Below, piece by piece: positions 34,659 through 49,571 of a DNA stretch of 64,000 bases. Both the position numbers and the translations under genes were made by a program. Source of the DNA: Unio delphinus (taxonomy: Eukaryota > Mollusca > Bivalvia > Unionida > Unionidae); the NCBI GenBank assembly GCA_029339505.1, contig JAQISU010000170.1, positions 2,250,001 through 2,314,000 on the forward strand. Reading direction: 5' to 3'. Under the pieces are notes generated by a model. That model worked only from the letters and a program-made list of their open reading frames with translations. It was not told the origin of the DNA and searched no databases. Numbering within the stretch: the stretch's first letter is position 1; the number at the start of each line of letters is the position of its first letter.

Positions 34659-34663
34659 TTCTA
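34659..34663. repeat. target site duplication TTCTA, left
   Basis: TTCTA directly before the left TIR tip is repeated directly after the right tip. With one further T on the left and the terminal T of the right TIR it could be read as the 6-bp TTTCTA, the usual Polinton length. Confidence 0.8.
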
Positions 34664-34873
34664 AGCAGCAGAGAGTGTGAACAGACTTTCTCTAATTGGG
34701 GTATATTTTAAGCAAAAATATTCTAAGTCTCCATTTGCCAAACTGAGACTTAACAATTTTAGAGCTCTGTTTGTCAAACGGAGCCTTCCTCAAGGGTAAA
34801 AAAAAAAGACGCCATTTAGTTGACGTTCACCTCCTCGGCTGCTAATGCGCTAACTAAATATTTGATCAAGTCC
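34664..34873 (+). repeat. left terminal inverted repeat
   Basis: 210 bases matching the reverse complement of 50812-51020. The only difference I see is A10 here against A9 in the right copy. Inner end GATCAAGTCC. It contains the last eight codons and the stop of the ATPase gene. Confidence 0.97.
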
Positions 34874-35512
34874 GACACGATATCTTGTCCGAGGGTCTGA
34901 TAAATTTATCGTCACAAATCCGTGTGGGATTGTCTGAGCGTGGCTAAAGAAATTTCTAAATCGATTATGATCCATATCACCACCGCACCAAGTTTGCCAA
35001 ATATTTCTAAGAGTATGAGTATCAACTCCGTTAAATACACACAGCATATTGCAGTTATCTCTGATCACTTTTGGTATTTGAGTGTAACGTTGAGTGATAT
35101 ATATCACATCGGTGTTTTTATGTCTGCCTCTGGAAAATATTCTAGCAGGATTCTTTTGATTATCTAACATGATATCATCATATACGACTAAATTGTTAAT
35201 ACTTCCATCAATATCATCAATATTCGGTGCCTCTTCGATATCGGTTATAAACTCAATAACACCATCGCCGTTAATTTCTTGCGCGGCATCATTAAAATCC
35301 TTTAATACTTCATAACATCGTTGATCGTCTACACTCGGAGCAATCATGTACAATTTATCCCACTTCATCCATCTCGTTATCAAATTAAGTAGCAATTGTG
35401 TTTTACCACTTCCAGATGGTCCGATGATAATCGCGCGAATAGAATTTGGTAACATTGCATGGTGTCTAATAGGTTCCCGTCGTCGAGTAGCTGAATAATC
35501 AATTACATTCAT
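34850..35512 (-). CDS. A32-like packaging ATPase (FtsK/HerA superfamily)
   Basis: 220 residues. Walker A GPSGSGKT at 31-38 and Walker B NNLVVYDDIM with Asp112-Asp113; the C-terminal half has the family block RNFFSHAQTIPHGFVTIN. Such ATPases pump viral DNA into the capsid in Polintons, virophages, adintoviruses and nucleocytoplasmic large DNA viruses. Length is usual for the group. The ATG at 35510-35512 is preceded by TATATATA, shared with the divergent zinc-ribbon gene 18 bases away. The stop codon and last eight codons lie inside the left TIR, so a copy of this short coding segment exists at the right end too. Its C-terminal part is also found as the relic at 9.75 kb. Confidence 0.95.
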   Translation of the reverse strand: MNVIDYSATRRREPIRHHAMLPNSIRAIIIGPSGSGKTQLLLNLITRWMKWDKLYMIAPSVDDQRCYEVLKDFNDAAQEINGDGVIEFITDIEEAPNIDDIDGSINNLVVYDDIMLDNQKNPARIFSRGRHKNTDVIYITQRYTQIPKVIRDNCNMLCVFNGVDTHTLRNIWQTWCGGDMDHNRFRNFFSHAQTIPHGFVTINLSDPRTRYRVGLDQIFS

Positions 35513-35530
35513 AACTGTTATATATAAATT
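35513..35530. promoter_or_regulatory. shared 18-bp divergent promoter with TATATATA
   Basis: Only AACTGTTATATATAAATT separates the start codons of the ATPase (-) and the zinc-ribbon gene (+). The near-symmetrical TATATATA lies 5-7 bases from each ATG, which implies very short or absent 5' leaders. Confidence 0.6.
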
Positions 35531-35713
35531 ATGGATCTATATTGTGTGAAGTGTAGGACGCGTACTGGCACAAATGACTTGACGACGATTACAACGAAAA
35601 ATAATCGATCAGCGCTTTCTGGTAAATGCGTACAATGTAGTACGAAAAAATTTAGATTTACTTCCACGAAACCTTTAAAAAAAAACGAGGAGGTGATATT
35701 GCAGCCAAATTGA
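35531..35713 (+). CDS. zinc-ribbon protein, DUF5679-like (frame 0 of a possible frameshift gene)
   Basis: 60 residues with two Cys pairs, YCVKC near the start and GKCVQCSTKKF at 31-41, and the sequence KNNRSALSG between them: a single zinc ribbon of the DUF5679 type as I remember it. Its last complete in-phase heptamer is A AAA AAC at 35680-35686; after it the frame runs only eight codons to TGA (35711-35713). The -1 frame continues without a stop into the PLA2-like domain, and in related elements, from memory, these two domains are one protein. Either programmed -1 frameshifting makes both a short and a fused product, or an A was lost or gained in the run. Role unknown; zinc-ribbon domains often bind nucleic acid or proteins. 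Confidence 0.8.
   Translation: MDLYCVKCRTRTGTNDLTTITTKNNRSALSGKCVQCSTKKFRFTSTKPLKKNEEVILQPN
35680..35686 (+). promoter_or_regulatory. candidate -1 ribosomal frameshift site A AAA AAC
   Basis: The heptamer has the X-XXY-YYZ form in the correct phase for the zinc-ribbon frame (codons AAA AAC at 35681-35686). The preceding bases extend it to TTTAAAAAAAAAC. I could not identify a strong stem or pseudoknot 5-9 bases downstream by eye. Confidence 0.5.
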
Positions 35714-36045
35714 CAAAACTCCCAGGAACACCGTGGGCAAAGTATCCAGGAGAAAAGCACCTTCCAGGATATAGCTACTGTGGACCGGGAACACGATTAG
35801 ATATCAGACTTGATGATCAAAATCAGCCCCGACCCGGCGAGTATCCAATAAACGCTATTGATAAGGCGTGTCATGCTCATGATGTCGCTTATAAAAGCAG
35901 CAATCTTCAACATAGACATCTCGCAGATGTAAAATTAATTCATGCGTTAAATGCTATTCCTGATAAATCCTTCAAAGAAAAATTGGCTTCTTGGTTGGTA
36001 AAATCTGCTATGAAGGGTAAATTGATGTTAGGTGCTGGTAATTGA
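35686..36045 (+). CDS. phospholipase A2-like domain (parvovirus-VP1u type), in the -1 frame
   Basis: From the slippery site this frame is open for 119 codons to TGA at 36043-36045. It holds the calcium-loop signature HLPGYSYCGPG and the catalytic His-Asp block KACHAHDVAY, as in the PLA2 domain of parvovirus VP1 and Polinton/adintovirus homologues; in viruses this domain acts on the endosomal membrane during entry. There is no ATG before the domain in this frame (the only early start-like codon is TTG at 35710), so translation must come by frameshift from the zinc-ribbon gene or the domain is silenced by an indel. The stop overlaps the palindrome AAAATGCTAGCATTTT before the integrase. Confidence 0.85.
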   Translation, partial: RGGDIAAKLTKLPGTPWAKYPGEKHLPGYSYCGPGTRLDIRLDDQNQPRPGEYPINAIDKACHAHDVAYKSSNLQHRHLADVKLIHALNAIPDKSFKEKLASWLVKSAMKGKLMLGAGN

Positions 36046-36060
36046 AAATGCTAGCATTTT
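36045..36060. repeat. perfect 16-bp palindrome AAAATGCTAGCATTTT
   Basis: Fills the gap between the PLA2 stop and the integrase ATG. Member of the dispersed palindrome family of this element. Confidence 0.9.
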
Positions 36061-36063
36061 AAT

Positions 36064-37020
36064 ATGGAATCTATTTATTATTCTCCGAGAGGATACTGGA
36101 GAGGTTACGCAGCAATCAATAAACTAGCTAGTGCATCAAAGGTGAAAAAAACTACAGCGGCAAACTGGTTATCTAAACAGGCAATATGGCAAATTTATCT
36201 ACCAGCGCCTAAACAAATTAACTATTCGCATTTTGATGTTACAACACCTAATGAAGTTCATCAAGCTGATATACTATTTCTGCCGCATGACAACGGTTAC
36301 AAATACGCGTTAACGTTAGTTGATATTGCAAGTCGATACAAAGAAGCAGAACCGTTAAAAACAAAATCATCTACTGAAGTAGCTTCTGCATTTGAAAAAA
36401 TTTATCGACGAGGTCCTCTGCGCTGGCCAAATCTGTTACAAGTTGATCCTGGCAAGGAATTTCAAGGTGTTGTTACATCTACGATGAAACATCATAATGT
36501 CGCCATCAGACGAGGACACACTGCGCTACATCGCGATCAGGCAATTGTTGAACGGTTTAATAAAACCCTTGCTGAGCGGTTATTCGGATATCAATACGCA
36601 AAAGAATTCATCCAGGATAAACGATCCCGTGAATGGGTCAAGAGATTACCAGCTGTGATTACCGCAATCAATAATGAGATTACTAGAACAATTAATATGA
36701 AACCTGTCAACGCTATTAAGAAGGCGTCTATCAAAATGGAAATCCAAGGAATTTCACAAAAAGATTTCAAAGAACCAATTCTTGGTAGTAATGTCATTGT
36801 AAGGTACTTATACGAACCAGGAGAGCTTGAGGGTGGTAAAAAAAGAGCTACTGATCCTATTTGGAGCGTCACTACGCATAAAATATCCGGCATAACACGA
36901 TCAACTGGTAGACCTCCAGTCTATAAACTGGATTCAACTGCTCCTCAGCGAGGATTTACACGCAAACAATTACAAGTGATTCCCGAGGATACTCAATTGC
37001 CACCGCGTGGTCTTAATTAG
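36064..37020 (+). CDS. Polinton integrase (DDE, retroviral type)
   Basis: 318 residues. The rve core shows D69 (HQADILFLP), D128 (LLQVDPGKEFQG) and E163 (AIVERFNKT), a D,D-35-E spacing. N-terminal 45 residues form a small helical region; the C-terminal 90 residues (IVRYLYEP...KQLQVIPED) suit the DNA- or chromatin-binding tail of the family. It joins the TIR ends to host DNA with a 5-6 bp duplication, as seen at this insertion. The ATG follows CATTTTAAT and the CTAG palindrome. Its last eight bases overlap the convergent polymerase gene. Confidence 0.95.
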   Translation: MESIYYSPRGYWRGYAAINKLASASKVKKTTAANWLSKQAIWQIYLPAPKQINYSHFDVTTPNEVHQADILFLPHDNGYKYALTLVDIASRYKEAEPLKTKSSTEVASAFEKIYRRGPLRWPNLLQVDPGKEFQGVVTSTMKHHNVAIRRGHTALHRDQAIVERFNKTLAERLFGYQYAKEFIQDKRSREWVKRLPAVITAINNEITRTINMKPVNAIKKASIKMEIQGISQKDFKEPILGSNVIVRYLYEPGELEGGKKRATDPIWSVTTHKISGITRSTGRPPVYKLDSTAPQRGFTRKQLQVIPEDTQLPPRGLN

Positions 37021-40000
37021 CACCCAGGGTGCTGTCACCCCGGCGTCTGTTGCACTCAAGACAAGTCAACCTCACATTGTTTCTGACATGACCGAGATTG
37101 TTATCTTTTCTATCTACGGTGAATTGGCGAGGATCTTTATCCGAATACTGCCAACGCATTATACAATTACAACTCGCGCAGTGATTGTTCTGTTGTTGCT
37201 TTAGTGTCTTAATTAATTCAGCATCAATGTCAAATTCTCTTTTATTTTTTTTATCCTGTTGTTTATAACCAGAGAGTTTTTTTCTGATTATATTATCATC
37301 GGTGTGTATATTACTTATTGTATTGTCATTATCATTAACCACAATTCTTCGAAGTTGGTTTATTCGCCGTACTCTGGATACTGCGAGATAAACTAAATTT
37401 GACCACTCAATATGATTATCTACTATCCAAAGAGTTGTATCGGATATAGTCAATCCCTGTGAAGAGTGTATTGTTGCTGCATAACCTAACGTCCATGGGG
37501 ATTTATCAGCACCTAATGCATCTTTAACGACGCTGATATCAACCAACACAATATCATTTAATACTAAATTCTGCTTTTGTTGTTGTCCAGGAATGTCAAC
37601 GTCGATATTCTGCTTTCGTGTATCCTTAGGTCTATAACAGAGTGGTACTGGAAGCGTTGCAAATTTTTCTTTATGTAGCGCAAACAACTTCATCTGAAGT
37701 GCGTCTCTGACTATTTTTCTACTCGCGATTATTAAATCATTTGGCTTCCACATTTCCCAAAAATCATTCATGGGAGTTTCAGAGATTATTTCACGCGCTA
37801 TTTCACATTGGATTTTATCCGGTTGTAATCTAATTAGCGCTTTGAATTCTCGTAATTGTTCATCAAGTGATCTATGGTCGGTATTAATCTCTTCATAATA
37901 ATCTACAAATCCTTTTAACCATTCATGTGGAGATCCACCAACAAATGGCTGCGGTTGGCCGTGATCCCCGCACATGACGACTTTTGTGTTTTTTGTCAAC
38001 AACCATGATAGAAATGTCTGTAATACTGTCAACGATATAGTACATATTTCATCCCAGATTATTACATCAGGAATGAATTTATCGCCCATTCGATCAGGAG
38101 TCCATGTATCGCCTTTCCATCGAAAGAAGCTGTGATAAGTACAAGCTTTTACCCCCCGCGCTATCATCTCTCTGGCGAGTCTGTGAGTTGGTGTTAACAC
38201 AATCATGTTAGAAACACTTGTGTTTCTATTACGAAATAATTCGATTGCACGAGTTGTCTTTCCTGATCCACCACAGCCGTTTAAATAAACTGTCTTGTAT
38301 CTACAAATCGGATCGGATACGGGCGGTGCAGTAGAAAATTCTGATTGAATCTCTGAGATATTATGGTTACTTTTCAAGTATTTATCATCCATAGCAACGT
38401 CTGCGGATTTACAATACTCATGTAGTGTTTCTTTTTTAAACCTCCAATTCCCCCACGCTTCCTTAGGATCTGTGAATTTAGCTACATCTGATTTATATTT
38501 CTCATGGATATACATCGAATCAGTAGCTACTCTAACCGCGGTATTAGGAAATCTATTTATCATCGAGAATAGATTAATACAAGAATAGGCTAGCATAGAA
38601 CTTCTCAATTGTGTGTATTGACAACTTTTTCCATCACAGTAGGTAACAACCGTACCTAATTTCTTACCATTTCGAAGGACATCATCTACCCAAATATTAT
38701 TAGTTCCGCTCGCAGATTTGTAAGCTTCCTCATCTAATTCCCCTGATAGAAAAGCGTTCTTACGGGTTACAAATTTCCCTTTTTTTATTAAATCAGATAT
38801 TATGAAATTGTATTCTTCATCGTCTATGATTAATCTAGAAGAGTATTTTGCATTATCAAATCTTCCACCTTGAGTAAATTTACCGATTATTTTTCGTCCG
38901 AGATCTTTAGCCTCTCTATTACTACCTTCGAATAATTTCTTAGACCAATCTATGATTTGTTCCTCGCTGAAATCCTTCGAATTTCCATCTAGAAATTGTT
39001 TTCGTTGTTCGTTAATTATTTTTTCGAGATCGGGTTTTGGTAACCAAACATCTTTCTGAGCGTTATAACAAATAATCGCTTCACTGACAATTAATGATGT
39101 TAACATACCACAATCGATCATATATCGCAATAGCACAATTGGCATCCACGCTTTTTCATACATATGTCTACCAAGCCAAAGATAACTACACGGATGTAAC
39201 CCTGTAGCTAATTCGAATGATATCACACGAGCGAACCCGGTTAAATCAAAATTAGAACTGCTAGCAGTTCCAGGCAATGGACCATTAATCGCAACACGAG
39301 TCATTTCATGTGTGGGATGTCCAAATCGTTTAAAATATTCAGAGCATTCTCCATATCCGAGAAAACTTCCAGGATAACACGCGGATATATCAATTGAAAT
39401 CATACCATCACGTGAGTATTTCGTATTCCACAATCCTCCATGACCAAATTCGACGCAACTCAACTTCACATCCTCCAGAAAATCACTTCGTGTTGGACGC
39501 CATGAATTCTTTTCTCGTGCGAAGTGAGCTACCACTGATGGAATTGTGAAGCTATCCGTAAGTAGTTTTTCTGTAGAAATGCTAGTGTTTCCTTCTAAAT
39601 ACTCATTAGCGATTTTTCTCATTCTAGTATCTAATTCTTCAGTTCGATATAATTCACCATTTGGTTTTACAAACTGATCAAATCCTATTTCCGGATCCTC
39701 ATTACTCCTGAGTAACCATACTGACACAGGGTCGTCTTTGGTTAACGCGTGAATAGCATCAAATAATTTCTCTTCATAGAAACCATCCCTAGAAAATTCT
39801 TTAGGGATATATCGAACAGTTCTTTCTCGTGGAAATATATTTACCGCGGGTGTCCACGCGTGTTTGTTATGATCAATAATTTCAATTGGAGCTCCTCGCG
39901 ATTGATATTTTGGTTCGTATAATACTTCTCCGGTTATTGTCGCTACCGATATTGGAAATTTTAATAATGCTTCTAATTTAGCTATATCGGAAATCATTGC

Positions 40001-40735
40001 CCCGCGCTGTTTCACTGTCAGTTCCCATTCGGTTATTTTGTTTCTTCGTAGATCAGTTAATTTATTTCCCCGGGATGCATTTTTGAAGTGTTCTATTAAC
40101 CGTGTTGCTACACAATTAAGTGGCAAAGCCACTGATGATGAAAACATCGGAGCTAGTTTTGCAATATTAGGATTATTATTTATTGGATATAACCCATACA
40201 CAACTGCTGTTACAGGGTAAGATTTCTCATAGTATGGTTTGTCAATTCCAGTTAGAATTCCTGGTTTGGAATCTCTACTCACAATAACAGTTTTTTTATC
40301 CTTAAGGATTGGGTCAAATTTATCTCTGATAATCCATTCACCTTCCTCTTCGATAATGAATTTTATTCTAAAAAAATACCTCCGTAGAGAATTGCTTTGC
40401 AATTTGCCTTTGGATTTCTGGCCAAGGTGTGAAAGTATCACAGCTGCTCTTATATCATTCATAGTAGCATCAATTACGGGTATATTGACATCTTCATCAA
40501 TAATTCGAAATGTCGACCACGTATGAGATGCTCCATCACGCTTAAACTCATTAAAACAGTCGCTGATTTTACTCAATAGTGGTTTATCATCTACTAGACT
40601 TTTAGGTATATCAGAGATTCTATCGAGATTAAATCTAACATTTTTCCAAGGCTTAATTTTCGATAATCTCTTGAACTCCTTCATATTATAATTAAAACAA
40701 GTATTTAAATAAGAAAATTTTATATAATGAATCAT
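37013..40735 (-). CDS. DNA polymerase B / SF1 helicase / HNH nuclease fusion
   Basis: One frame of 1,240 codons; the ATG at 40682-40684 (residue 18, MKEFKRLSKI) is the likelier start since the longer form overlaps the divergent gene. Residues 18-440 have no recognised exonuclease motifs. Polymerase: motif A SIDISACYP (Asp449, Tyr454), a motif-B-like REAKDLGRKIIGKFTQGG (607-624), motif C VRVATDS with Asp739 but Ala737 where most family B enzymes have the first Asp of DTD. Helicase: Walker A GCGGSGKTT (820-828), Walker B IIWDEI (Asp895-Glu896), GDHGQPQP (923-930), TIHSSQGLT (1088-1096) and VYLAVSRVRR (1115-1124), an SF1 set. C-terminus: an HNH-type zinc nuclease with C1186-x2-C1189, VDRKDN, H1216, N1219-N1220 and C1225-x2-C1228. 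The element's replication enzyme; the fusion is unusual in my knowledge of Polintons. Confidence 0.9.
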   Translation of the reverse strand: MIHYIKFSYLNTCFNYNMKEFKRLSKIKPWKNVRFNLDRISDIPKSLVDDKPLLSKISDCFNEFKRDGASHTWSTFRIIDEDVNIPVIDATMNDIRAAVILSHLGQKSKGKLQSNSLRRYFFRIKFIIEEEGEWIIRDKFDPILKDKKTVIVSRDSKPGILTGIDKPYYEKSYPVTAVVYGLYPINNNPNIAKLAPMFSSSVALPLNCVATRLIEHFKNASRGNKLTDLRRNKITEWELTVKQRGAMISDIAKLEALLKFPISVATITGEVLYEPKYQSRGAPIEIIDHNKHAWTPAVNIFPRERTVRYIPKEFSRDGFYEEKLFDAIHALTKDDPVSVWLLRSNEDPEIGFDQFVKPNGELYRTEELDTRMRKIANEYLEGNTSISTEKLLTDSFTIPSVVAHFAREKNSWRPTRSDFLEDVKLSCVEFGHGGLWNTKYSRDGMISIDISACYPGSFLGYGECSEYFKRFGHPTHEMTRVAINGPLPGTASSSNFDLTGFARVISFELATGLHPCSYLWLGRHMYEKAWMPIVLLRYMIDCGMLTSLIVSEAIICYNAQKDVWLPKPDLEKIINEQRKQFLDGNSKDFSEEQIIDWSKKLFEGSNREAKDLGRKIIGKFTQGGRFDNAKYSSRLIIDDEEYNFIISDLIKKGKFVTRKNAFLSGELDEEAYKSASGTNNIWVDDVLRNGKKLGTVVTYCDGKSCQYTQLRSSMLAYSCINLFSMINRFPNTAVRVATDSMYIHEKYKSDVAKFTDPKEAWGNWRFKKETLHEYCKSADVAMDDKYLKSNHNISEIQSEFSTAPPVSDPICRYKTVYLNGCGGSGKTTRAIELFRNRNTSVSNMIVLTPTHRLAREMIARGVKACTYHSFFRWKGDTWTPDRMGDKFIPDVIIWDEICTISLTVLQTFLSWLLTKNTKVVMCGDHGQPQPFVGGSPHEWLKGFVDYYEEINTDHRSLDEQLREFKALIRLQPDKIQCEIAREIISETPMNDFWEMWKPNDLIIASRKIVRDALQMKLFALHKEKFATLPVPLCYRPKDTRKQNIDVDIPGQQQKQNLVLNDIVLVDISVVKDALGADKSPWTLGYAATIHSSQGLTISDTTLWIVDNHIEWSNLVYLAVSRVRRINQLRRIVVNDNDNTISNIHTDDNIIRKKLSGYKQQDKKNKREFDIDAELIKTLKQQQNNHCASCNCIMRWQYSDKDPRQFTVDRKDNNLGHVRNNVRLTCLECNRRRGDSTLGAN
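38210..38227. repeat. 18-bp palindrome AGAAACACTTGTGTTTCT inside the helicase domain
   Basis: Perfect except for the central TT. On the coding strand it encodes RNTSVS, just after Walker A helix sequence and before MIVLTPTHR, a loop position. Confidence 0.8.
39255..39270. repeat. 16-bp palindrome GAACTGCTAGCAGTTC inside the polymerase domain
   Basis: Perfect CTAG-centred palindrome encoding part of PGTASSSNF, a small-residue loop after motif A. Confidence 0.75.
39576..39591. repeat. 16-bp imperfect palindrome GAAATGCTAGTGTTTC
   Basis: CTAG-centred, two G-T type mismatches. On the coding strand it encodes GNTSIS within YLEGNTSISTEK. Confidence 0.7.
40685..40726. promoter_or_regulatory. divergent promoter region between PolB and the Cys-rich gene
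   Basis: AT-only stretch; TTTTATATA abuts the ATG of the rightward gene (40727), and on the other strand TTAATTATAAT abuts the preferred PolB ATG (40684). Confidence 0.5.
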
Positions 40736-41056
40736 TGCAAATGGCTTATGATTGGATCAAAGACTCCGTGTAACAAATCATGCAGAAATGAATTCTGTGG
40801 GTATCATATGCAGAGTGTGAGAAACGGTTCGGAGGGGCCTTTACCATGCTTGCATTGTGGGGTAGGTGTAAGAGGCAAGTCGCAGTTATGCATTAATTGC
40901 GGGGGTAAGCGTTATAGAGAGTTAAAACGTTATTATGACAAGCGAAGAATCAAAAATCCTGACGACGTCAATGGCAAAATCATAAAAACTACGGATGACT
41001 ATATAAAAAGATTTGTTAATGTTATAATTCAGCCAATTAACGAATTAGACAAATAG
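40727..41056 (+). CDS. small Cys-rich zinc-binding protein
   Basis: 109 residues. Cys/His-rich N-terminal half: CKWLMIGSKTPC, CRNEFCGYH and then a zinc-ribbon-like pair CLHCGVGVRGKSQLCINCG, followed by a basic stretch (KRYRELKRYYDKRR) and a helical tail. This suggests a small nucleic-acid-binding or adaptor protein. I do not recognise it as a named family. It is divergent from PolB and followed 17 bases later by the HNH gene, so it may belong to the early/replication set. Confidence 0.8.
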   Translation: MNHCKWLMIGSKTPCNKSCRNEFCGYHMQSVRNGSEGPLPCLHCGVGVRGKSQLCINCGGKRYRELKRYYDKRRIKNPDDVNGKIIKTTDDYIKRFVNVIIQPINELDK

Positions 41057-41073
41057 ATATATTATATATACAA

Positions 41074-41562
41074 ATGAGCCAAGAATTTCAAAGACATCCT
41101 GTTATTAAAAATTACGAAGCTTCTCGTGATGGTATTGTCAGACACAGTAAAAATAAGAAATCTGTTGGGCGGGATAATGGTATGGGTTATTTGATATTTA
41201 AAGCTGGAGGGAAAATGTATCTCAATCATCGTTTCGTTTATGAAGTGTATAATGGATTAATCAAGGATGGCCTTGTTATTGATCATATTGATGGTATTAG
41301 GACACATAATTCTTTGAATAATTTACGAGCTGTTACACAAAGTGAGAATACTGCATTTGGAAATACTGGTACTTGTAAATCAATTGGGAAGAGACCAGTA
41401 AGATCGTTTAATACTGACACGGAGATGGTATTTCAATCAATGTCAGAAGCTGGTAAGTATTTCGATATTCACACCTCCTCGGTACAAAAAGTAGCAGAGG
41501 GAATTTATAAGACCGCTTTTTCAAAGCGTTTTAAAAACAAAATTCAGTTTGTTTATGTATAA
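41074..41562 (+). CDS. HNH endonuclease with NUMOD-like ends
   Basis: 162 residues. The first 60 residues (VIKNYEASRDGIVRHSKNKK, then GYLIFKAGGKMYLNHR) look like a NUMOD4 module. The HNH_3 core is LNHRFVYEVYNG, then LVIDHIDGIRTHNSLNNLR with the catalytic His and Asn. The C-terminal part (FQSMSEAGKYFDIHTSSVQK) is a NUMOD1-like DNA-binding helix-turn-helix. This is the make-up of free-standing homing-type endonucleases in phages and large DNA viruses. TATATTATATATACAA precedes the ATG. A second, unrelated HNH module is fused to PolB next door. Confidence 0.9.
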   Translation: MSQEFQRHPVIKNYEASRDGIVRHSKNKKSVGRDNGMGYLIFKAGGKMYLNHRFVYEVYNGLIKDGLVIDHIDGIRTHNSLNNLRAVTQSENTAFGNTGTCKSIGKRPVRSFNTDTEMVFQSMSEAGKYFDIHTSSVQKVAEGIYKTAFSKRFKNKIQFVYV

Positions 41563-42013
41563 TTTGCATTGGAAATTGCTTCGTGAAATTGTGAAAGAAT
41601 TTCCATTGAAAATCTTCAATTTTGCAATTTCACATGGGAGATAACTCCGTTAGGTATAACACGTGTGAAATCCGTAGGATTTCCACCAATGACAGAGTTA
41701 CGGATCTTAAACACGGAAACGCTAGTGTTGGAAAATCTTCGATTTTTCATTGGTTGTTATAATTAAATAAATCCGAACAAAATACAATCAATTTTGTCTT
41801 TTTTCAAGTATTAACAGAACTGTTTTATAAACACGTCGTATTTAAACATTTTTTTTAATGTCTGTTTCAAGTATTATGCGTGTTTTCAACGTTGTCAGTG
41901 ATCGCTAATAAACAAACAAATAATTACAATCACTACACCTATTTTATATCACCTCGTCGTAATGAGTGTATATATACAAATTCGTTCTTATTATAATTGG
42001 GCATTTAGCCGAA

Positions 42014-42114
42014 ATTCAAGTGTAAACAAAACCACACCGTCACACGTGGTATGAACGTTATTATTGACATTCAAAACCAAAGTTTCGATTTTGCGGTTTT
42101 GTTTACACTTGAAT
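42014..42114. repeat. 20-bp perfect inverted repeat with 61-nt loop
   Basis: ATTCAAGTGTAAACAAAACC (42014-42033) and its exact reverse complement (42095-42114). Confidence 0.93.
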
Positions 42115-42127
42115 GTAGAATAGCCCG

Positions 42128-42297
42128 CGTCATCCATTGTCATTGAAATCAATTCATTGTTCACCTATAATCTATTGTTGTACCGTCGTCATTGTCATTG
42201 AAATCAATTCATTCATTGTTCACCTATAATCTATTGTTGTACCGTCGCATTGTCATTGAAATCAATTCATTCATTGTTCACCTATAATCTATTGTTA
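42128..42297. repeat. tandem repeat, three copies of about 55-59 bp
   Basis: Unit contains CATTGTCATTGAAATCAATT, CATTGTTCACCTATAATC and TATTGTTGTACCGTC. Copy 1 lacks one CATT; copy 3 ends TATTGTTATGTG. ATTGAAATCAAT adds a small internal palindrome. Confidence 0.92.
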
Positions 42298-42421
42298 TGT
42301 GTTTGTCGGTTGTAACCGTTGAGCGCTGCTTGATGTATAAAACACCAAGGGGGTTTAAAACGGTGAATGTGCCGTCGTCATTCATTATATATAATCATAA
42401 TCACCTATAATCGCATTAAGC

Positions 42422-42464
42422 TTCTGGGTATACTAAGATGATCAACACCTTAGTGTATCCAGAA
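42422..42464 (+). promoter_or_regulatory. 19-bp stem, 5-nt loop hairpin
   Basis: TTCTGGGTATACTAAGATG (42422-42440), loop ATCAA, then CACCTTAGTGTATCCAGAA (42446-42464). Two G-U pairs and one A-C mismatch in 19 positions. It stands about 100 bases before the next gene. Confidence 0.8.
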
Positions 42465-42549
42465 TTCATTTTGAAAATACTTTGCATTTTTAATTCTAAA
42501 GAATTTTCATACTTTGTATTTGAAATACTTTGCATTTAAACAAATATAT

Positions 42550-42561
42550 TTTTATATATAT
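42550..42561 (+). promoter_or_regulatory. TATA-like string abutting a start codon
   Basis: TTTTTATATATAT directly precedes ATG 42562. Preceded by repeated TTTGCATTT strings (42482, 42532). Confidence 0.5.
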
Positions 42562-42951
42562 ATGAATATTGAAAATCTCAAATTGATTATTATTGAAATC
42601 AACAAGTTGAAGGATGAAAATGTAAAATTATGTTCAGGTTTGGATTGTGATCAAATTATGACTGATTTCGAGGATATACAATTTGCAGAACAGACAGGAA
42701 AATATGTCCTATCTAAGAAATATTTTTTAATTAAGAATATCCAAAAGTTTATACGTGAAAGTTTAGTCAATACTGAAGATGTTAATATATTCGTACCATT
42801 ATGTAGCATCGTTGAACGTGTACGTAAGCAATTAGGATTAGAATATGAACAAAAGAGACTTATTAATTGTAAAGTGAGACAATTAAAAACATTAATGGAA
42901 AACTCTGAAGGTGATGAGCCCACGCGTAGAGAGCCTCCTTTGTTTGTATAA
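42562..42951 (+). CDS. Polinton orphan protein, helical
   Basis: 129 residues from the first ATG (MNIENLKLIIIEINKLKDEN). Rich in Leu, Ile, Lys and Glu and apparently all-helical, with a basic helix near the end (KLINCKVRQLKTLM-like region) and a Pro/Arg tail (EPTRREPPLFV). No family recognised. The TATA string at the ATG and its place in the element support it as a real gene. Confidence 0.7.
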   Translation: MNIENLKLIIIEINKLKDENVKLCSGLDCDQIMTDFEDIQFAEQTGKYVLSKKYFLIKNIQKFIRESLVNTEDVNIFVPLCSIVERVRKQLGLEYEQKRLINCKVRQLKTLMENSEGDEPTRREPPLFV

Positions 42952-43109
42952 CCGATACGGTATGAGGAAGTAAAATTATGTGTGTGTAACAACAAGGAAG
43001 TATTAAAATGATTTGCATTTTTAGGTTAGTGATTTGCATTTCTAAAATGCTTTGGATTTTTTAATTAAAAATTGCAAAGCAATTTGACAATAGTAATACT
43101 CTTTTAATA

Positions 43110-44204
43110 ATGGTAGGAGAATCATTAACAACGAGATTAGCTAGAGAAAGACTTGAAGCTCTTAAGAAAATATTACCCCTTCGTGATAGAATCCGTGAAA
43201 AACTTCAACAACGGCAATCAATGGCCACCGACTTCACAGAGGATACAGAACAACTCTTCAAACCTATTGTTAGTGCAACTGAGGGTGTGAAAACAGCAAT
43301 CTCTAAACAAGAAAGCGCGCAGAAAGAGTCCTTTCTCCCTGTGTTAGAGAAAATATCAAAACGAACTAAACAAACGAAAAAATCATTAAAAACACTTCCT
43401 GGTGATATAATAACTGCTGCAAGACGACAAGAAGAACAACAACGAGAACTTCAGGAAGAAATTGAACGATTAGGTGATGTTGATATTTCCTCACTAGAAA
43501 CGCAAGCATTTCCACCTGAAGAGGAAGAAGAACAACAAGAAGAAGCTGTTCCAAGGAGGGACTATAATCCTGAAAATATATTTACAGTTGATGCGTTAAA
43601 AAAAATCAGAAGTATCCCAACACTCGATGGTTTAGTTAAATTTACCAACGACAACATTAAAAAAGATAAGAGAAATAAGTATTTAATAGACGACACGTCT
43701 AAAGATTTTATAAACAATAAAATCCTTTGGGCAAATAAGGTGTTTTTAGCAAACAAGAAGGAAAACAAAATCAACAAAAAAATAAGATCTGATTATGACC
43801 AATTTATAGCTATGGTAAAGAAGATCACAGTAGCACCACCAGTATACACAGCAGACCCAATCCCTGATGAAATACAAATAATGGCAGAGGCTGATTCCCA
43901 GAGTAAAACTCTGAAGGGTGCAACTGGTACAACTAAAAAAACAGGCAGTGGTTTAGTTGGAAATTCTTCGAGTGGAAATACAAGTATTTCTTGCCCTGGC
44001 AATATTCTTAGCGATATATCCCGATTAGAAATACTTGTAGGAGGAAAACGAGCCGGGAATAACTCACCAGAAATAATCAATGAAGCAGCTGATATCTGTA
44101 GGAGATTATTTCAAGGTGGTATCATGGATATTGCAACATATAGAGATTTCATTGAAGAGTTAGCCGAAAATTCTTCGAATTTCTACGGTTATCATAGTGA
44201 CTAG
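43110..44204 (+). CDS. Polinton orphan protein with coiled coil and acidic Glu/Gln block
   Basis: 364 residues. The first 120 residues are charged and helical (RLARERLEALKKIL, then a coiled coil ARRQEEQQRELQEEIERLGD), followed by an EEEEEQQEEA block near 140, a lysine-rich middle and a Ser/Gly/Thr linker, then a compact C-terminal part (NILSDISRLEILVGGKRAGN, EAADICRRLFQGGIMD). The last part looks like a conserved domain. The linker contains the palindrome-coded GNTSIS. No named family recognised; a scaffold or core protein would suit the composition and the position before the virion genes, but this is a guess. Confidence 0.75.
   Translation: MVGESLTTRLARERLEALKKILPLRDRIREKLQQRQSMATDFTEDTEQLFKPIVSATEGVKTAISKQESAQKESFLPVLEKISKRTKQTKKSLKTLPGDIITAARRQEEQQRELQEEIERLGDVDISSLETQAFPPEEEEEQQEEAVPRRDYNPENIFTVDALKKIRSIPTLDGLVKFTNDNIKKDKRNKYLIDDTSKDFINNKILWANKVFLANKKENKINKKIRSDYDQFIAMVKKITVAPPVYTADPIPDEIQIMAEADSQSKTLKGATGTTKKTGSGLVGNSSSGNTSISCPGNILSDISRLEILVGGKRAGNNSPEIINEAADICRRLFQGGIMDIATYRDFIEELAENSSNFYGYHSD
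43975..43990. repeat. 16-bp palindrome GAAATACAAGTATTTC in coding sequence
   Basis: Perfect but for the central AA; encodes GNTSIS in the linker of the 43110 gene. Confidence 0.75.
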
Positions 44205-44212
44205 ATAATTGG

Positions 44213-44260
44213 AAATGCTTTAGCATTTGGAAACACTAGTGTTAGAAGTATAATACTTCT
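44213..44260. repeat. three adjacent palindromes between genes
   Basis: AAATGCTTTAGCATTT (44213-44228), AACACTAGTGTT (44232-44243) and AGAAGTATAATACTTCT (44244-44260), side by side, just before the ATG at 44270. The last overlaps the TATA-like CTATATAG. Confidence 0.88.
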
Positions 44261-44269
44261 ATATAGAGA

Positions 44270-44773
44270 ATGATCATACACTACAACCATGATAAACCAG
44301 CTAACGTCTACGTGGTAAACTCACGATTACCAAAATACCGAGTATACTATGGAGATGGTCTCGGTAATACTATAATGGGATTATTTTCAAGAATGGCTCC
44401 AAAAGTAGCTCCATTTGCAAAACAGGCAGCAATGAAAGCAATTGATGTTATCCGAGATAAGGGTATTAACACTGTTGGTGATCTTGCTAGTAAGGCATTT
44501 TCAGCCGCTCGGGATAAACTAACAGCGCTAGTTCGACGACGAAATTCTTCAAAACCTGGAAATGCTAGCATTAGAAACACTAGTGTTTCTGGAATGACTT
44601 CACTGCCATCTACTGCAGTAATGCCTACACAGGTTAGTAAAATAATAAATAACGCCGTGGATAAAAAACTACAGTCGTTAATGACTAACGCCCAGGATAA
44701 TATAACAGCAAATATGATAGCCGGAAGTGGGCTTTCGGGAAGTGGTTTTAAGAAGATTCGCCGGAAACGTTAG
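44270..44773 (+). CDS. small basic virion-core-like protein
   Basis: 167 residues. A glycine start (YYGDGLGNTIMGLFSRM) leads into an amphipathic helical stretch (APFAKQAAMKAIDVIRDKG, then LASKAFSAARDKLTALVRRR), a Ser/Thr-rich middle and a basic end (GSGFKKIRRKR). Such amphipathic, basic proteins with a G-x-G-L start occupy the pVI/pX place in adenovirus-like and Polinton gene sets; I assign this by composition, not by a firm motif. Codons 98-107 come from two palindromes (GNASIRNTSVS). Confidence 0.7.
   Translation: MIIHYNHDKPANVYVVNSRLPKYRVYYGDGLGNTIMGLFSRMAPKVAPFAKQAAMKAIDVIRDKGINTVGDLASKAFSAARDKLTALVRRRNSSKPGNASIRNTSVSGMTSLPSTAVMPTQVSKIINNAVDKKLQSLMTNAQDNITANMIAGSGLSGSGFKKIRRKR
44561..44590. 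repeat. two back-to-back palindromes in coding sequence
   Basis: AATGCTAGCATT (44561-44572) and AGAAACACTAGTGTTTCT (44573-44590), both perfect, encoding NASIRNTSVS in the 44270 gene. The same pair, in the other order, stands in non-coding DNA at 44904-44933. Confidence 0.9.
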
Positions 44774-44776
44774 AAA

Positions 44777-44981
44777 TATTTATTTGAACAGGATTTCCAA
44801 TTATGATAGTTATTGTAGAAATGCTAGCATTAGAAATAATTGTGTCAGAATCACTTGTGATTCTATTTATTTGAATAGGATGCTCAGTTGTTATGGTTAT
44901 TGTAGAAACACTAGTGTTTCTAATGCTAGCATTAGAAATATTTGTGTCAGAATCACTTGTATCAGAATCACTTGTGATTCT
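44777..44981. repeat. duplicated block with five palindromes
   Basis: TATTTATTTGAA-(C/T)-AGGAT...GTTATTGTAGAAA occurs at about 44776-44819 and 44865-44908. Palindromes: AATGCTAGCATT (44820-44831, 44922-44933), AGAATCACTTGTGATTCT (44847-44864, 44964-44981) and AGAAACACTAGTGTTTCT (44904-44921). Confidence 0.88.
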
Positions 44982-45167
44982 ACTTACGTTATCTTCATTA
45001 TCAGATATTTTCATCATCATTATTAAAATACACCCAACTAAATAATTGGTTTAAAAAAATTATTTTTATATTATAAAATATTTATAATTTGCTAATTTTG
45101 TTAGATTTTTTACTTTTTTTACTCATTTTTCTAGTGTTTTTACTCATTTTTCTAGTGTTTTTATGCA

Positions 45168-45388
45168 ATCCGTCGACAAAATTTCATGAAAATCGAGGAT
45201 GAAAACCCCAGGAATTCATTTAGAGAAAATCGATTTTGATTAGATTTTTTATCCTGTGAGGCTAAAAATATGTTGTTTCATCGAATTTTCGATGTTTTTT
45301 TTTTATTGATTTTGTATTGTTTTTTGACTAATCCGTCGACATAATTTCATGAAAATCGATTTTCTCTAAATGAATTCCTGGGGTTTTC
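45168..45388. repeat. 37-bp perfect inverted repeat nested in a 29-bp direct repeat
   Basis: 45201-45237 and 45352-45388 are exact reverse complements (arms begin GAAAACCCCAGGAATTC). ATCCGTCGACA(A/T)AATTTC followed by ATGAAAATCGA is repeated directly at about 45168-45196 and 45331-45359. The set ends 65 bases before the major capsid ATG. Confidence 0.92.
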
Positions 45389-45437
45389 AATTCAAAATTC
45401 CTTCAGAATTCTTTCAGAATTTTTGATTTAGACCATC

Positions 45438-45452
45438 GGATATATAATAAAA
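45438..45452 (+). promoter_or_regulatory. TATA-like box of the major capsid gene
   Basis: GGATATATAATAAAA immediately before the ATG at 45453. Confidence 0.55.
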
Positions 45453-46925
45453 ATGTTCAAACAAAACCCTGATGTTGCATTTGACATGGAAGCCCCAGTG
45501 CTTAAAGATACTTCTGTACGTGATTATCAATTTTTTGCTTATCACGCAGTACAACCTGATCTTCGTGGAAGAATTGAACTTCAGGTTCATGATACCAGTA
45601 AATACTTTTTACCTGCTGAAGCTTTTATTGAAGTCGAAGGTGAACTCGTACAAAATATTCCACTTAATACAGTATATGGGCCTAATTTACAAGTTGGTTT
45701 TGTTAATAATGGTATTATGGCATTATTTGAAAGCGCTAGATATCTCATTGATGGAAAAGAAATCGAATCTATTGAACGTGAAGTTGATGTAGCAACAACA
45801 ATATTAGGGCTAGCAAGATACTCTGATGACTATACTAGATCAGCGGGTCCATCTATGATGTTCACGAAGGATATTACTGATAATCCTGATGGTACTCCAT
45901 ATATAAGAAGAATACCACAAAATCGTGTTGCTGCTGGAACTGCTGGTGCTGGCGCTTTTGCTGTTGTTCCTGCTGCTGTTGTTGCAAGCGGTCAGATTGA
46001 AGATTTAGTTGTAGATGGTAATCCTAATTACAACCTAGGATTTGCAACACGAGTAGCAACGTTACAAGGAGAGCATCGACATTTTTCATGTGCGATTCCG
46101 CTCCATCACATATTTGGATTTTGTAGAAACGTCAGAAAAGTTATTTATGGAGTAAAGCATACTGTAGCACTAGTGAGAAAGGGTAATGATAATAATGCAA
46201 TCTGGAGCGCTGTTGGCGTTGCCGATGGTAAAGTAATTTTAACAAAACTAACATTATGGATGCCAGTGTTGACTCCATCATTGTCAGTAGAACCGCGGTT
46301 GCTATCATTTATGGATCAAGGGGGAAAGAGATTATTAAGCTGGTTGACAACGTCCACAGATACCATGGATTCTAATATTGATGGTACATTTACATGGCAT
46401 TTGGCAGCACGACAGGGTGTTTCAGCTCCACGGCATATATTTGTTGCTCTACAGGATATTACGAGATTAAACAATCAAGAAAGAAGTCATATGATATTTG
46501 ATAAACTTGGGTGTAGTGAAGTCTCGCTGAAAATAAACGGACAACAAGAACCAGCAGAGGATATACAACTTAACTATGAAAATAACCACATTGCACGAGT
46601 TTATCATCGATTGCTATCATTTATGGGACGTGATCAAAATGTAGATACTGGTCTACAAATATCACAATTGGATTTTAAAGGTCTGTATCCGATTTATTAC
46701 TTTTCCCTAGAACATCTTGACTTGATGAAACAATCCGTAGTTGATATACATTTTCGGGCTCGTGTACATCCTGGTGTTCACCCTGATCCTGCTCCTCCTG
46801 GGGCTACTGCTGGTAATGATGTTAATTATAGAGCAGTTGCTGTTATTCTTAGTGATAAATCAATGATACTCGAAGGTGTTGGTGGACGAATGAGACTAGT
46901 AGATGCACCAGTGGAAAATCTATAA
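45453..46925 (+). CDS. major capsid protein, double jelly-roll (hexon-like)
   Basis: 490 residues. The start (KDTSVRDYQFFAYHAVQPDL) and the blocks NGIMALFESARYLIDGKEIE, FSCAIPLHHIFGFC, LTLWMPVLTPS and the C-terminal LKINGQQEPAEDIQLNYENN with IYYFSLEHLD and IHFRARVHP are the recurrent features of Polinton/adintovirus major capsid proteins as I know them. These form the hexagonal shell of icosahedral virions. An Ala/Gly/Val-rich loop (AAGTAGAGAFAVVPAAVVAS) near 165-190 and a PGVHPDPAPPG loop near 440 are probably exposed. No break is seen. Confidence 0.93.
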   Translation: MFKQNPDVAFDMEAPVLKDTSVRDYQFFAYHAVQPDLRGRIELQVHDTSKYFLPAEAFIEVEGELVQNIPLNTVYGPNLQVGFVNNGIMALFESARYLIDGKEIESIEREVDVATTILGLARYSDDYTRSAGPSMMFTKDITDNPDGTPYIRRIPQNRVAAGTAGAGAFAVVPAAVVASGQIEDLVVDGNPNYNLGFATRVATLQGEHRHFSCAIPLHHIFGFCRNVRKVIYGVKHTVALVRKGNDNNAIWSAVGVADGKVILTKLTLWMPVLTPSLSVEPRLLSFMDQGGKRLLSWLTTSTDTMDSNIDGTFTWHLAARQGVSAPRHIFVALQDITRLNNQERSHMIFDKLGCSEVSLKINGQQEPAEDIQLNYENNHIARVYHRLLSFMGRDQNVDTGLQISQLDFKGLYPIYYFSLEHLDLMKQSVVDIHFRARVHPGVHPDPAPPGATAGNDVNYRAVAVILSDKSMILEGVGGRMRLVDAPVENL

Positions 46926-46988
46926 GATTTTCTTAATCCAAAATTCTTTAAAAATGACTCGCGATTTAGAATCAACCTGTTTTGTATA

Positions 46989-47450
46989 ATGTCGTATAGT
47001 AATATCAATGTCACATTGACACCTGGTCAAATAAAAAAATTACAATCCAAATCAGCTAAACAATGCGGAACCACAATAACGCTGAAACCTAATCAAATGA
47101 ATGGCGGAGGAAATAAACTATCGCTGACGAAAACTCAAACTAATCATTTTAATAAAGCACTGAAAGAAAAAAAAGGAGTTCAGGTTACTCTTTCTACGAG
47201 CGCGATCCGTAACATGGAAAAGACTGGTGGTATATTCCCGTTGTTAGGGTTGATTCCAGGGTTGATTGCCGCAGCAGCCCCAGCGGTAGCGAAGGCAGCA
47301 GCGTTAGGAGCCATTGGTACCGCGGCAGGAATGGCGTTGAAAAAGGCAACTGGAAAAGGGTATAAAAAAAAAGGAAAGGGTCTAAGACTACCAGGAACCC
47401 CGAGTTCATGGTACAGCGGAAAGGGTCTTCGAATTCCAGGAACGATATAG
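46989..47450 (+). CDS. pX-like minor virion protein
   Basis: 153 residues. N-terminal half with the repeated lay-out TLTPGQIKKLQSKSAK, then LSLTKTQTNHFNKALKEKKG and VTLSTSAIRNM; then a hydrophobic segment (GLIPGLIAAAAPAVAKAAAL, near 95-125) and a Gly/Lys-rich basic tail with the repeated LRLPGTP/LRIPGTI. This combination is that of the adintovirus pX-like proteins, thought to be minor, membrane-active or DNA-binding virion components. TTTGTATA abuts the ATG. The end overlaps the protease frame by 43 bases. Confidence 0.8.
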   Translation: MSYSNINVTLTPGQIKKLQSKSAKQCGTTITLKPNQMNGGGNKLSLTKTQTNHFNKALKEKKGVQVTLSTSAIRNMEKTGGIFPLLGLIPGLIAAAAPAVAKAAALGAIGTAAGMALKKATGKGYKKKGKGLRLPGTPSSWYSGKGLRIPGTI

Positions 47451-47875
47451 TTCAGGAACCGATGGTTCCCATGTCCAATTTTGATTTAATTGATACCGCT
47501 AAAAAATTAAAAATAAAAAATTTCAGAGGGGTTTTTATGAGAGATCAGTTACCGGCACAACCAAATGATGTTGAAACCGGTATTATTAATTTAGATAACA
47601 GCTCCGGACCTGGAACTCACTGGGTTGCATACGCGATTGATCCACGTGGGATTATTTATTTTGACTCATATGGATTAGCGCCGCCGAAAGAATTTATGCG
47701 TTATATTAAAACCCTTCCAATGAAGACTTGGTATTCTACGTTACCAACACAAACAATGCTTGATCCACCAATATGTGGTAATGAAGTATTAAACGTACTT
47801 GATGCTATATCCAAAAGATTTTCGAAACCACCTCATATAGTAGTAAATGAGTATACTAGCGGCAAATCTCCTTAA
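47408..47875 (+). CDS. adenain-like cysteine protease (ULP1/C5 type)
   Basis: 155 codons from the first ATG; the homologous part begins MSNFDLIDTAKKLKI (ATG at 47471), past the upstream gene's stop, so that is a likely start. Catalytic set visible: His71 (GTHWVAY), Asp86 (IIYFDSYG), Gln115 (LPTQTML) and Cys123 (PPICGNEV), the adenain order. The block FRGVFMRDQLP is typical of Polinton proteases. It matures capsid-associated proteins during virion assembly. Somewhat short at the C-terminus; its last 29 bases overlap the next gene. Confidence 0.93.
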   Translation: MVQRKGSSNSRNDIVQEPMVPMSNFDLIDTAKKLKIKNFRGVFMRDQLPAQPNDVETGIINLDNSSGPGTHWVAYAIDPRGIIYFDSYGLAPPKEFMRYIKTLPMKTWYSTLPTQTMLDPPICGNEVLNVLDAISKRFSKPPHIVVNEYTSGKSP

Positions 47876-48941
47876 AAATCCATCGGATTTAAACGATGAA
47901 AATATTTCTATAATAATGATTGATATTTGGGGACGATCTTTATCAACGTTGAAAAAACCTGATAGTGAAGTTGAAACCGTTGATAACAAGGATATTAAAA
48001 AACTAATCGAAGATGAAATATCCGAAATATTAAACCTAGCAAATATTGATCCTGGTGAAATAGTTGTATTTCAAGATCGTCAGGGTAAATTGAAAAGTAG
48101 TAATATCTCTCTTAATGATATTTTGGTTAAACAACGAGACGCAGCAGAGGATGCTATCGCGTTATTTTCTGATGAGGGTAAACTCAAACCAGGTGTACTT
48201 GTTTCAACAATTACGGATAAATTAACAACATACGATAACACGGTGAATTCATTAAAATCGCTTAATGATAAGTATGATGATCATATAATTGTATTTGACC
48301 AGTTTACTGCATTACAAAGAAATATAGTTGACAAAATCGATAAGCCCATACTAGAATTTTTTGGAAATCCACCAGTGACCACACCAAAACTCACCACAAT
48401 AAAAGATTCTATATTGGAACTAGCAACTCTTCAATCCGAATATGAAAAACACACGAAACTATTTATGACGTTTCGTAAAAACCTCATGGACAAGTTTATT
48501 GGGAGCCCATTTGATAAAATTGAAATAACACTTCCCGATATTAAAAAATCCATCGATGAACTTAAAACATTCAACAACGCAATAAGGGATGATGCAATGA
48601 GAATGATAAGCGTTGTTGAAAAAGTAAAAATTCCTCATAATAAATCTATCATCAACGTAGTATACACGATTCAACACGGATCATATACGTGGACACCTAC
48701 AAACAATATTTTAACCGTAACCGCAGCAGTCAAGGGTATTTATCGATTAACAATAGTATCACCGACTCAGTTTGAAATATCATCAAGTAGTTCATCTGGA
48801 GTCAATAATACGATATCAACGATAATCGACAAGGATACAATTGAACAATTCACGATAACGACTACAGATAAAAATCTAGTCAAGGTTTCAGTAACGTGGT
48901 ACGTAGAATTCGTAGTGGATTTAAGTAAACAATTAAATTGA
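47847..48941 (+). CDS. Polinton orphan, helical stalk plus C-terminal beta-rich domain
   Basis: 364 residues. Residues 1-270 are mostly helical and charged with repeated aromatic/Leu spacing; residues about 270-364 change to beta-type sequence (INVVYTIQHGSYTWTPTNNI, ISSSSSSGVNNT, VKVSVTWYVEFVVDLSK). Long stalk plus small beta domain at the end of the virion gene block would suit a fibre- or vertex-associated protein, but I recognise no family and do not assign a role. The ATG lies inside the end of the protease gene. Confidence 0.7.
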   Translation: MSILAANLLKNPSDLNDENISIIMIDIWGRSLSTLKKPDSEVETVDNKDIKKLIEDEISEILNLANIDPGEIVVFQDRQGKLKSSNISLNDILVKQRDAAEDAIALFSDEGKLKPGVLVSTITDKLTTYDNTVNSLKSLNDKYDDHIIVFDQFTALQRNIVDKIDKPILEFFGNPPVTTPKLTTIKDSILELATLQSEYEKHTKLFMTFRKNLMDKFIGSPFDKIEITLPDIKKSIDELKTFNNAIRDDAMRMISVVEKVKIPHNKSIINVVYTIQHGSYTWTPTNNILTVTAAVKGIYRLTIVSPTQFEISSSSSSGVNNTISTIIDKDTIEQFTITTTDKNLVKVSVTWYVEFVVDLSKQLN

Positions 48942-48964
48942 TTTAAAAATTCTTTCACGATTCA

Positions 48965-49004
48965 AAATTACAAAGTAATTTGTAATTGAAAATGCTAGCG
49001 CTTT
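48965..49004. repeat. palindrome pair before the membrane-protein gene
   Basis: AATTACAAAGTAATTTGTAATT (stem AATTACAAA, about 48967-48988) and the imperfect AAAATGCTAGCGCTTTT (about 48990-49006), followed by TTTTAAAATAAA and the ATG at 49014. Confidence 0.75.
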
Positions 49005-49013
49005 TAAAATAAA

Positions 49014-49571
49014 ATGACTCCATCATCGAATCAGTATCGCTATGATCAAGTCAGAGAATTTCAAACTAAACTCAATTCTCTCTGTGAGGAGTATCAAATA
49101 AAAATCAAAAAATACAAACGAAGAATAACCACAGTTGATATCACCGTGTACTCGGTGTCAGGAGTAATCACTGCTGCTGGAATAATACTATCTTCGGTTA
49201 CAATGATTGCTCCGGTCGTAGTTCCAATCGCTATTTCCGCAGTGGCTACAATTGCTGGTATATTAACTGGGATCACAAAAAAACTATCATCGTGTAGCCA
49301 GAGTAAACTACATGATTATTTAATTAAATATCATATTGCATCTGCCGGTTACTCGCAATTATCCTCGTTGATATCATCGTCGTTGGATGACACAACAATA
49401 TCAGATAGCGAATTTTCAACTATGGCTCAATTGTATAAATCAACAATGCTGAAATTAGAGCAGAATAATAATAATAATGTCATCGCAAGAACTACTTCAA
49501 CAAATAGTAACAAATACAACACCAGTGAAAACAAGCACGATATCAATAACCTCAACACGTCCCGAATTTAG
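49014..49571 (+). CDS. Polinton membrane protein, two transmembrane segments
   Basis: 185 residues. A charged N-terminal helix (EFQTKLNSLCEEYQIKIKKY, KRR) is followed by two hydrophobic stretches, VSGVITAAGIILSSVTMIA and VVVPIAISAVATIAGIL (about 44-84), then a helical C-terminal region and a Ser/Asn-rich tail. The tail (from about residue 155) overlaps the penton gene by 95 bases in another frame. No named family recognised; a virion or host membrane location is inferred from the segments. Confidence 0.75.
   Translation: MTPSSNQYRYDQVREFQTKLNSLCEEYQIKIKKYKRRITTVDITVYSVSGVITAAGIILSSVTMIAPVVVPIAISAVATIAGILTGITKKLSSCSQSKLHDYLIKYHIASAGYSQLSSLISSSLDDTTISDSEFSTMAQLYKSTMLKLEQNNNNNVIARTTSTNSNKYNTSENKHDINNLNTSRI

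Follow-up and report, generated by a model that had tools for sequence, protein, structure and literature searches.

Proteins in which a protein-primed PolB (pPolB) and a superfamily 1 (SF1) helicase (S1H) share one chain are recorded from the Tlr1 element of Tetrahymena, from polinton-like viruses (PLVs), and from transpovirons (PMC11071308). These Tlr1-like helicases are described there with a terminal protein (TP)-like position, a vOTU domain, a palm, and the S1H, optionally followed by a C-terminal GIY-YIG or HNH nuclease; the first Asp of motif C is lost in them, loss of the exonuclease accompanies gain of the helicase, and they are predicted to be active (PMC11071308). Further papers indicate that the Tlr1 helicase-GIY-YIG fusion was noted in 2013 (PMC3671162), that helicase fusions with HNH or GIY-YIG occur in cryptophyte and other PLVs (PMC12220804), that protist elements hold helicases fused to an unknown domain (PMC10120064), and that OmPLV of Oxyrrhis marina carries an independent, reversed SF1-pPolB fusion (PMC12721341); PMC7805220 and PMC11071296 provide general context only. 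Here, we analyze a fusion protein of this kind encoded by a Polinton of the bivalve Unio delphinus, within a stretch of 64,000 nucleotides (contig JAQISU010000170.1, positions 2,250,001 to 2,314,000; hereafter the window). The fusion of helicase and polymerase was reportedly described in a paper of 2016.

The protein is, with a probability of roughly 85%, a Polinton replication enzyme of the Tlr1-like pPolB-S1H family, a reading based on its domain order, on the folds predicted for its palm and helicase, on the conservation of its catalytic residues, on signs of purifying selection, and on genuine insertions of the element. Since the published family shares the domain order, the losses, and the C-terminal nuclease, the architecture is of a known kind, and the distinct new replication module envisaged in a preliminary description of the window does not stand, the same order having already been reported for the Tlr1-like helicases (PMC11071308). 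Likenesses comprise the N-terminal extension, the Cys/His residues of a likely vOTU, the lost first Asp of motif C, the SF1 helicase behind the palm, and the C-terminal nuclease, together with the rve integrase that Tlr1 also carries (PMC11071308). The window family differs from the Tlr1-like one in bearing terminal inverted repeats (TIRs) and target-site duplications (TSDs) and in residing in a 2.5 Gb genome, and related proteins of full length are found among molluscs (Elysia) and in Glomeromycotina; in the clade of the window protein the HNH is nearly fixed and of a DR (PacI-like) type, and a PRD1-like TP is only suggested. What is added here is an animal/fungal branch, an intact multi-copy family, data on selection, and the matching of element ends.

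Domain organization of the fusion protein

PolB, SF1 helicase, and HNH lie in one frame of 1240 uninterrupted codons carrying all motifs listed in the preliminary description, whose claim of a single frame is borne out, within a real Polinton (Table 1). The gene probably starts at Met18 (40684), because the homologues P0002 and P0003 begin there. Motifs A (IDISACYP, 448-455), B (IIGKFTQGG, 616-624), and C (VATDSMYI, 736-743) belong to a palm that matches a phi29-like fold of the protein-primed polymerase type, confirming residues 440-800 as a polymerase and ruling out the opposite outcome; in the viral fold list H6WBE3 was the best model and the mavirus pPolB the second (E 1.5e-10). The helicase matches RecD2/Pif1/Dda-like folds of the SF1B type. 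The VIA fold lists span residues 304-780 and ~800-1134, the TP, vOTU, and HNH parts being scarcely covered. Comparison of the family profile with one canonical pPolB sequence returned no palm match, and therefore sequence alone leaves the family and canonical palms unlinked. Mavirus pPolB resembles the protein in its TP-vOTU-PALM order and in missing most of the exonuclease and the motif-C Asp, but mavirus encodes its helicase, of the SF3 type, in a gene apart (PMC11071308); OmPLV also has an SF1 helicase fused to pPolB, but at the N-terminal side and with the exonuclease kept (PMC12721341).

The first 440 residues indeed show no recognizable exonuclease active site, as previously stated, but they are no featureless region: an OTU-type protease probably lies there, preceded by a TP-like part and followed by an exonuclease-like fold that has degenerated. 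Residues 35-130 are predicted to adopt the order strand-helix-strand-strand-helix-strand, the first strand being of two residues and low confidence. PRD1-like TPs are built of four strands and two helices, and their linking residue lies after helix 2 and before strand 4 (PMC11071308); the predicted order equals the one derived for them from that description, which suggests a domain of this type. A TP-like domain, absent from the preliminary description, is likely. Tyr169 (63/70 homologues) and Tyr173 (67/70) are conserved and are candidate priming residues only. An OTU-type cysteine protease domain (Cys208/His292), equally absent before, is likely as judged from its residues: Cys208 is kept in 72 of the 73 homologues covered and in 37/37 genomic copies, His289 in 74/75 and His292 in 71/75 homologues, and the predicted secondary structure places the Cys at a helix start and both His at strands, as published for vOTU proteases. 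Residues 301-425 fall within the range of the phi29 fold match, from phi29 residue 52-54; at residues 300-425 this protein contains no conserved exonuclease acids, and in column 359, which is Asp in 71/79 homologues, it has Asn. The exonuclease is thus lost, and a canonical pPolB of the same genome (L051) does show exo motifs.

Relatives, genomic copies, and competing explanations

Three overlapping protein searches returned 51, 68, and 92 proteins (the third with the palm only, E up to 1), amounting to 119 distinct ones when the query is not counted. Among the sources that bear a name are Elysia crispata, E. marginata, Sinanodonta woodiana, and a metagenome-assembled genome (MAG) of Thiodiazotropha, a clam symbiont; the relative from Desmophyllum pertusum consists of the polymerase part only, and the Glomeromycotina are represented by Diversispora, Rhizophagus, Gigaspora, Racocetra, Cetraspora, and Ambispora. 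Palm, S1H, and HNH occur together in Elysia P0038 and P0041 and in fungal P0043, P0096, and P0103. A census of the 46 proteins of at least 1000 residues (query included, 74 shorter ones left out) recognized the palm in 46, S1H in 46, vOTU in 45, the TP region in 42, and HNH in 42; further PolB-SF1 fusions were thereby found, with the helicase C-terminal to the palm in every one of the 46. In P0120 (E 7.6e-7), the remotest of the relatives, vOTU, palm, and S1H are retained, whereas the TP region is unrecognized and there is no HNH match; the fused core therefore seems to predate the HNH end. No relative was detected in the IMG/VR viral contigs scanned, and among contigs of prokaryote genomes only one match turned up (JAADDH010000070.1), a broken copy of the fusion gene in a MAG labelled as a Diapherotrites archaeon that is probably wrongly binned eukaryote DNA. 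No report of the fusion in animals or Glomeromycotina was found in the literature searched, which leaves out most subscription papers and is no proof of absence.

By protein search, at least 37 copies exist in the same genome, the window copy matching at 100% and the others at 98-99% identity, and an internal stop is absent from 36 of the 37 scored. Nineteen of the 20 key residues checked are invariant across all 37, Ala737 among them. The family is under purifying selection: the ratio of nonsynonymous to synonymous differences (dN/dS, Nei-Gojobori p-distance ratios) is 0.176 when pooled over 666 pairs (95% bootstrap 0.131-0.235; median 0.173; range 0.05-0.41), pairs that share ancestry and are not independent. 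By domain the values are 0.33 for the N-terminal part, 0.19 for vOTU, 0.18 for the exonuclease-like part, 0.10 for the palm, 0.19 for S1H, and 0.19 (95% 0.06-0.58) for HNH.

At the C-terminus, four Cys (CxxC...CxxC) and a DR...GH...N pattern are conserved, and the canonical first His of HNH is Arg in 40/40 homologues covered (compare Arg93 of PacI). R.PacI aligns along a stretch reading VDR...NxRL.C..CNR rather than VDH, with a weak score (E 0.4), but differs over the whole domain. The optional C-terminal nuclease of the pPolB-S1H family is present, as an HNH / endonuclease VII-like zinc domain. In nematode Polintons, HNH or VSR insertions occur within pPolB. A different zinc/HNH-like domain occupies the C-terminus of the relative P0098 (E 0.013 for Pfam HNH, under the cut-off), which suggests an exchange of nucleases at this position. 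The chances are about even that the HNH end is a parasitic homing nuclease that entered the gene and plays no part in replication: homing invasion is favored by the authors describing the family (PMC11071308), 4 of the 46 long relatives lack an HNH match and at least one, P0098, ends otherwise, and the zinc ligand Cys1186 is replaced by Tyr in 2 of the 37 genomic copies, whereas the same position of the domain in the other 42 proteins and its dN/dS in the genome speak against it.

Several observations weigh against a working replication enzyme of the Tlr1-like family, beginning with the dependence among the pairs noted above. The TP region has no significant fold match, no conserved Ser/Tyr was seen by eye at the expected priming loop in a 22-row alignment, and OTU structures enter the fold list solely at E >1. 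Considering all 120 proteins, 27 of the 116 with a palm match lack an S1H match; these look like fragments, as judged from their lengths, though some may represent a stand-alone form: 26 are shorter than 760 residues and most end inside or just after the palm, although the 27th, P0059, has 917 residues, and in three the palm is nearly complete with 0 to 20 residues after it. The likeness to Tlr1 and transpovirons rests on published descriptions rather than on sequence comparison. Finally, the first metal-binding Asp of motif C is Ala737 in 37/37 copies, the same position in other homologues being Ala in 58 of the 65 covered and Asp in none, and loss of this Asp once led to the family being called inactivated (PMC11071308).

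This last point also favors the view of the palm as a defunct remnant, in which case the protein would act as a helicase (and protease) while another polymerase copies the element, e.g., that of canonical Polintons, whose at least 75 pPolB places in the genome could supply it in trans. Such a view appears unlikely. Asp449 (motif A), Lys619 (motif B), and Asp739 (motif C) are invariant in 37/37 copies, and mavirus, pipolin, and other PolBs without the first motif-C Asp are reported to be active (PMC11071308). Moreover, among the six domains it is the palm whose pairwise dN/dS is lowest (0.103 versus 0.202 for the rest), a moderate difference, as the palm equals or exceeds the rest in 3.5% of bootstraps; against this constraint, counts of variable codons are not lower in the palm (32 with replacements and 34 silent-only, of 375).

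It is more improbable still that the protein represents a truly new module, unrelated to the Tlr1-like family and fused independently in animals, even though the viral contig scans gave no relatives, Tlr1 was compared by description only, and an independent reversed fusion does exist in the dinoflagellate OmPLV (PMC12721341): the family as described has the same domain order, lacks the exonuclease and the motif-C Asp in the same way, and agrees in the residues of the vOTU and in the HNH at the C-terminus (PMC11071308), and the core retained by P0120 looks older than the clade. That separate genes were joined by an error of assembly or translation has a negligible chance and was rejected, nothing having been found in its favor, the 37 copies lying at separate places (with different flanks in the six checked) and being under selection, and homologues occurring in many other data sets.

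The element, its ends, and canonical Polintons in the same genome

Ends were studied in six of the 37 copies, namely the window element and five fetched ones. All six are bounded by perfect 5-bp TSDs (TTCTA, TGATT, AGCTC, TACGA, GTTTC, and GAGAA). When the outermost 210 bases are compared, five of the six copies have left and right ends that agree at 0.95-1.00 identity, the window element reaching 99.5%; the sixth, C110, has mixed ends (0.81), the left resembling C53 (0.99) and the right both C235 (0.99) and C48 (0.97). Between copies, the identity of the ends ranges from 0.60 to 0.99. Relative to the window, the coding DNA of the five copies shows 97.1-98.5% identity in the principal alignments, which cover 6 kb around the fusion gene, with 95.9% in one 0.7-kb side piece, and stretches of 1.3 to 1.4 kb that adjoin the ends on the inner side show 92.9-99.2%. 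Terminal repeats (34664-34806 and 50878-51020 in the window element; ends L039-L048 of the five others) diverge between copies far more than coding DNA does.

The within-copy matching fits one end being copied from the other during linear, protein-primed replication, with gene conversion after insertion as a rival explanation. That a single-chain replisome drives a recently multiplying Polinton family, its working copying one terminal repeat onto the other, is proposed tentatively, at slightly less than even odds.

The window element is a complete Polinton of 16,357 bp with the Polinton/Maverick hallmarks, i.e., long TIRs, a short TSD, rve, A32, and a DJR major capsid protein (MCP), the protease match being weak. 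It has no stand-alone exonuclease-bearing pPolB, the fusion protein standing in its place, and by its replication gene it is a pPolB-S1H variant and not a canonical Polinton.

Table 1. Features of the window element (window coordinates)
Feature	Coordinates	Strand	Remarks
Fusion replication protein, 1240 aa	37013..40735	-	single open frame
Putative terminal-protein-like N-terminal domain, residues 30-190	40166..40648	-	
Likely OTU-type cysteine protease domain, residues 191-300	39836..40165	-	Cys208, His289/His292
Putative degenerate exonuclease-like domain, residues 301-425	39461..39835	-	
Protein-primed PolB palm/fingers, residues 426-800	38336..39460	-	
SF1B (RecD2/Pif1/Dda-like) helicase, residues 801-1135	37331..38335	-	
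HNH / endonuclease VII-like zinc domain, residues 1156-1240	37016..37270	-	phrog_1035 E 3.1e-10
Polinton element	34664..51020	.	termini AGCAGCAGAG at both ends, TTCTA direct repeat outside
Target-site duplication TTCTA, left copy	34659..34663		
Target-site duplication TTCTA, right copy	51021..51025		
Left terminal inverted repeat, ~210 bp	34664..34873	+	
Right terminal inverted repeat	50812..51020	-	
A32-like packaging ATPase	34850..35512	-	Pox_A32 E 1.3e-12
Parvovirus-type phospholipase A2-like protein	35710..36045	+	Phospholip_A2_4 E 1.8e-11
Retroviral-type integrase	36064..37020	+	rve E 2.5e-8
Stand-alone HNH_3 endonuclease	41074..41562	+	HNH_3 E 5.9e-13
DJR capsid protein	45453..46925	+	DJR-like_dom E 3.3e-19
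Adenovirus/Ulp1-type maturation protease	47408..47875	+	Peptidase_C5 E 0.01, weak, under curated cut-off
Probable minor capsid protein	49477..50811	+	by position only; no Pfam match reaching curated cut-off

The canonical pPolB places of the genome (PF03175) lie mostly in frames of ~1361 codons. The one canonical copy read, L051, has a DFE exonuclease and a YFDTDS motif C, both missing from the window protein, and DNA_pol_B_2 is its sole Pfam match in the 957 residues examined. Canonical Polinton/adintovirus pPolBs (TP-vOTU-EXO-PALM) are otherwise alike in being protein-primed PolBs accompanied by rve integrase, A32 ATPase, and DJR capsid. At C225:201500-239500 (L055-L058), an element related to that of the window, but older and partly broken, has been interrupted in its minor-capsid-like gene by a canonical element. 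This older relative has 87% identity to the window in the ATPase, 91% in the phospholipase A2 (PLA2)-like protein, 85% in the integrase, 62-91% in pieces of the fusion protein, and 71% in the MCP. In the middle stretches (L055, L056), no open reading frame of at least 120 residues matches the S1H profile, and the HNH profile has a weak hit in one (E 0.003). These data indicate that two Polinton replication types coexist, an element of the one type having landed within a relative of the other. An exchange of capsid modules with a canonical Polinton, an idea raised by a canonical pPolB adjoining a capsid module 71% identical to that of the window at C225, was rejected, since the flanks there show a canonical insertion into the older relative.

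As regards neighboring genes, the PLA2-like gene shares its 91% identity with the copy in the older relative, and PLA2 genes in Polintons were previously known (PMC4642659). The second, HNH_3 (NUMOD1-like) endonuclease near the fusion gene has only a short match (28 residues) in that relative. Fragments of RVT_1 reverse transcriptase flank the element on both sides (1122-1703 and 51897-52478, the second under the Pfam cut-off).

Proposed working and significance

In the proposed mechanism, the N-terminal domain would act as the terminal protein and prime synthesis at the terminal repeats, the OTU protease would release this priming domain from the polymerase once initiation is done, and the palm would copy the element while displacing a strand. 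The SF1B helicase in the same chain, of the 5'-to-3' type, would travel on the displaced strand in the direction of the polymerase and may compensate for the lost exonuclease, and the HNH could be an accessory nuclease, either a captured homing one or a branch-cutting one. If this is true, a single-chain replisome would combine primer, protease, a polymerase without one metal-binding Asp, 5'-to-3' helicase, and nuclease.

The activity of the palm in pPolB-S1H fusions has been disputed, being regarded as inactivated at first and later predicted to be active (PMC11071308). The 37 close copies constitute natural data on this matter, with the palm as the most constrained domain by pairwise dN/dS, and the canonical pPolB Polintons of the same genome serve as an internal comparison. 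Altogether, the family indicates that the pPolB-S1H fusion extends beyond protists and the satellites of mimiviruses.

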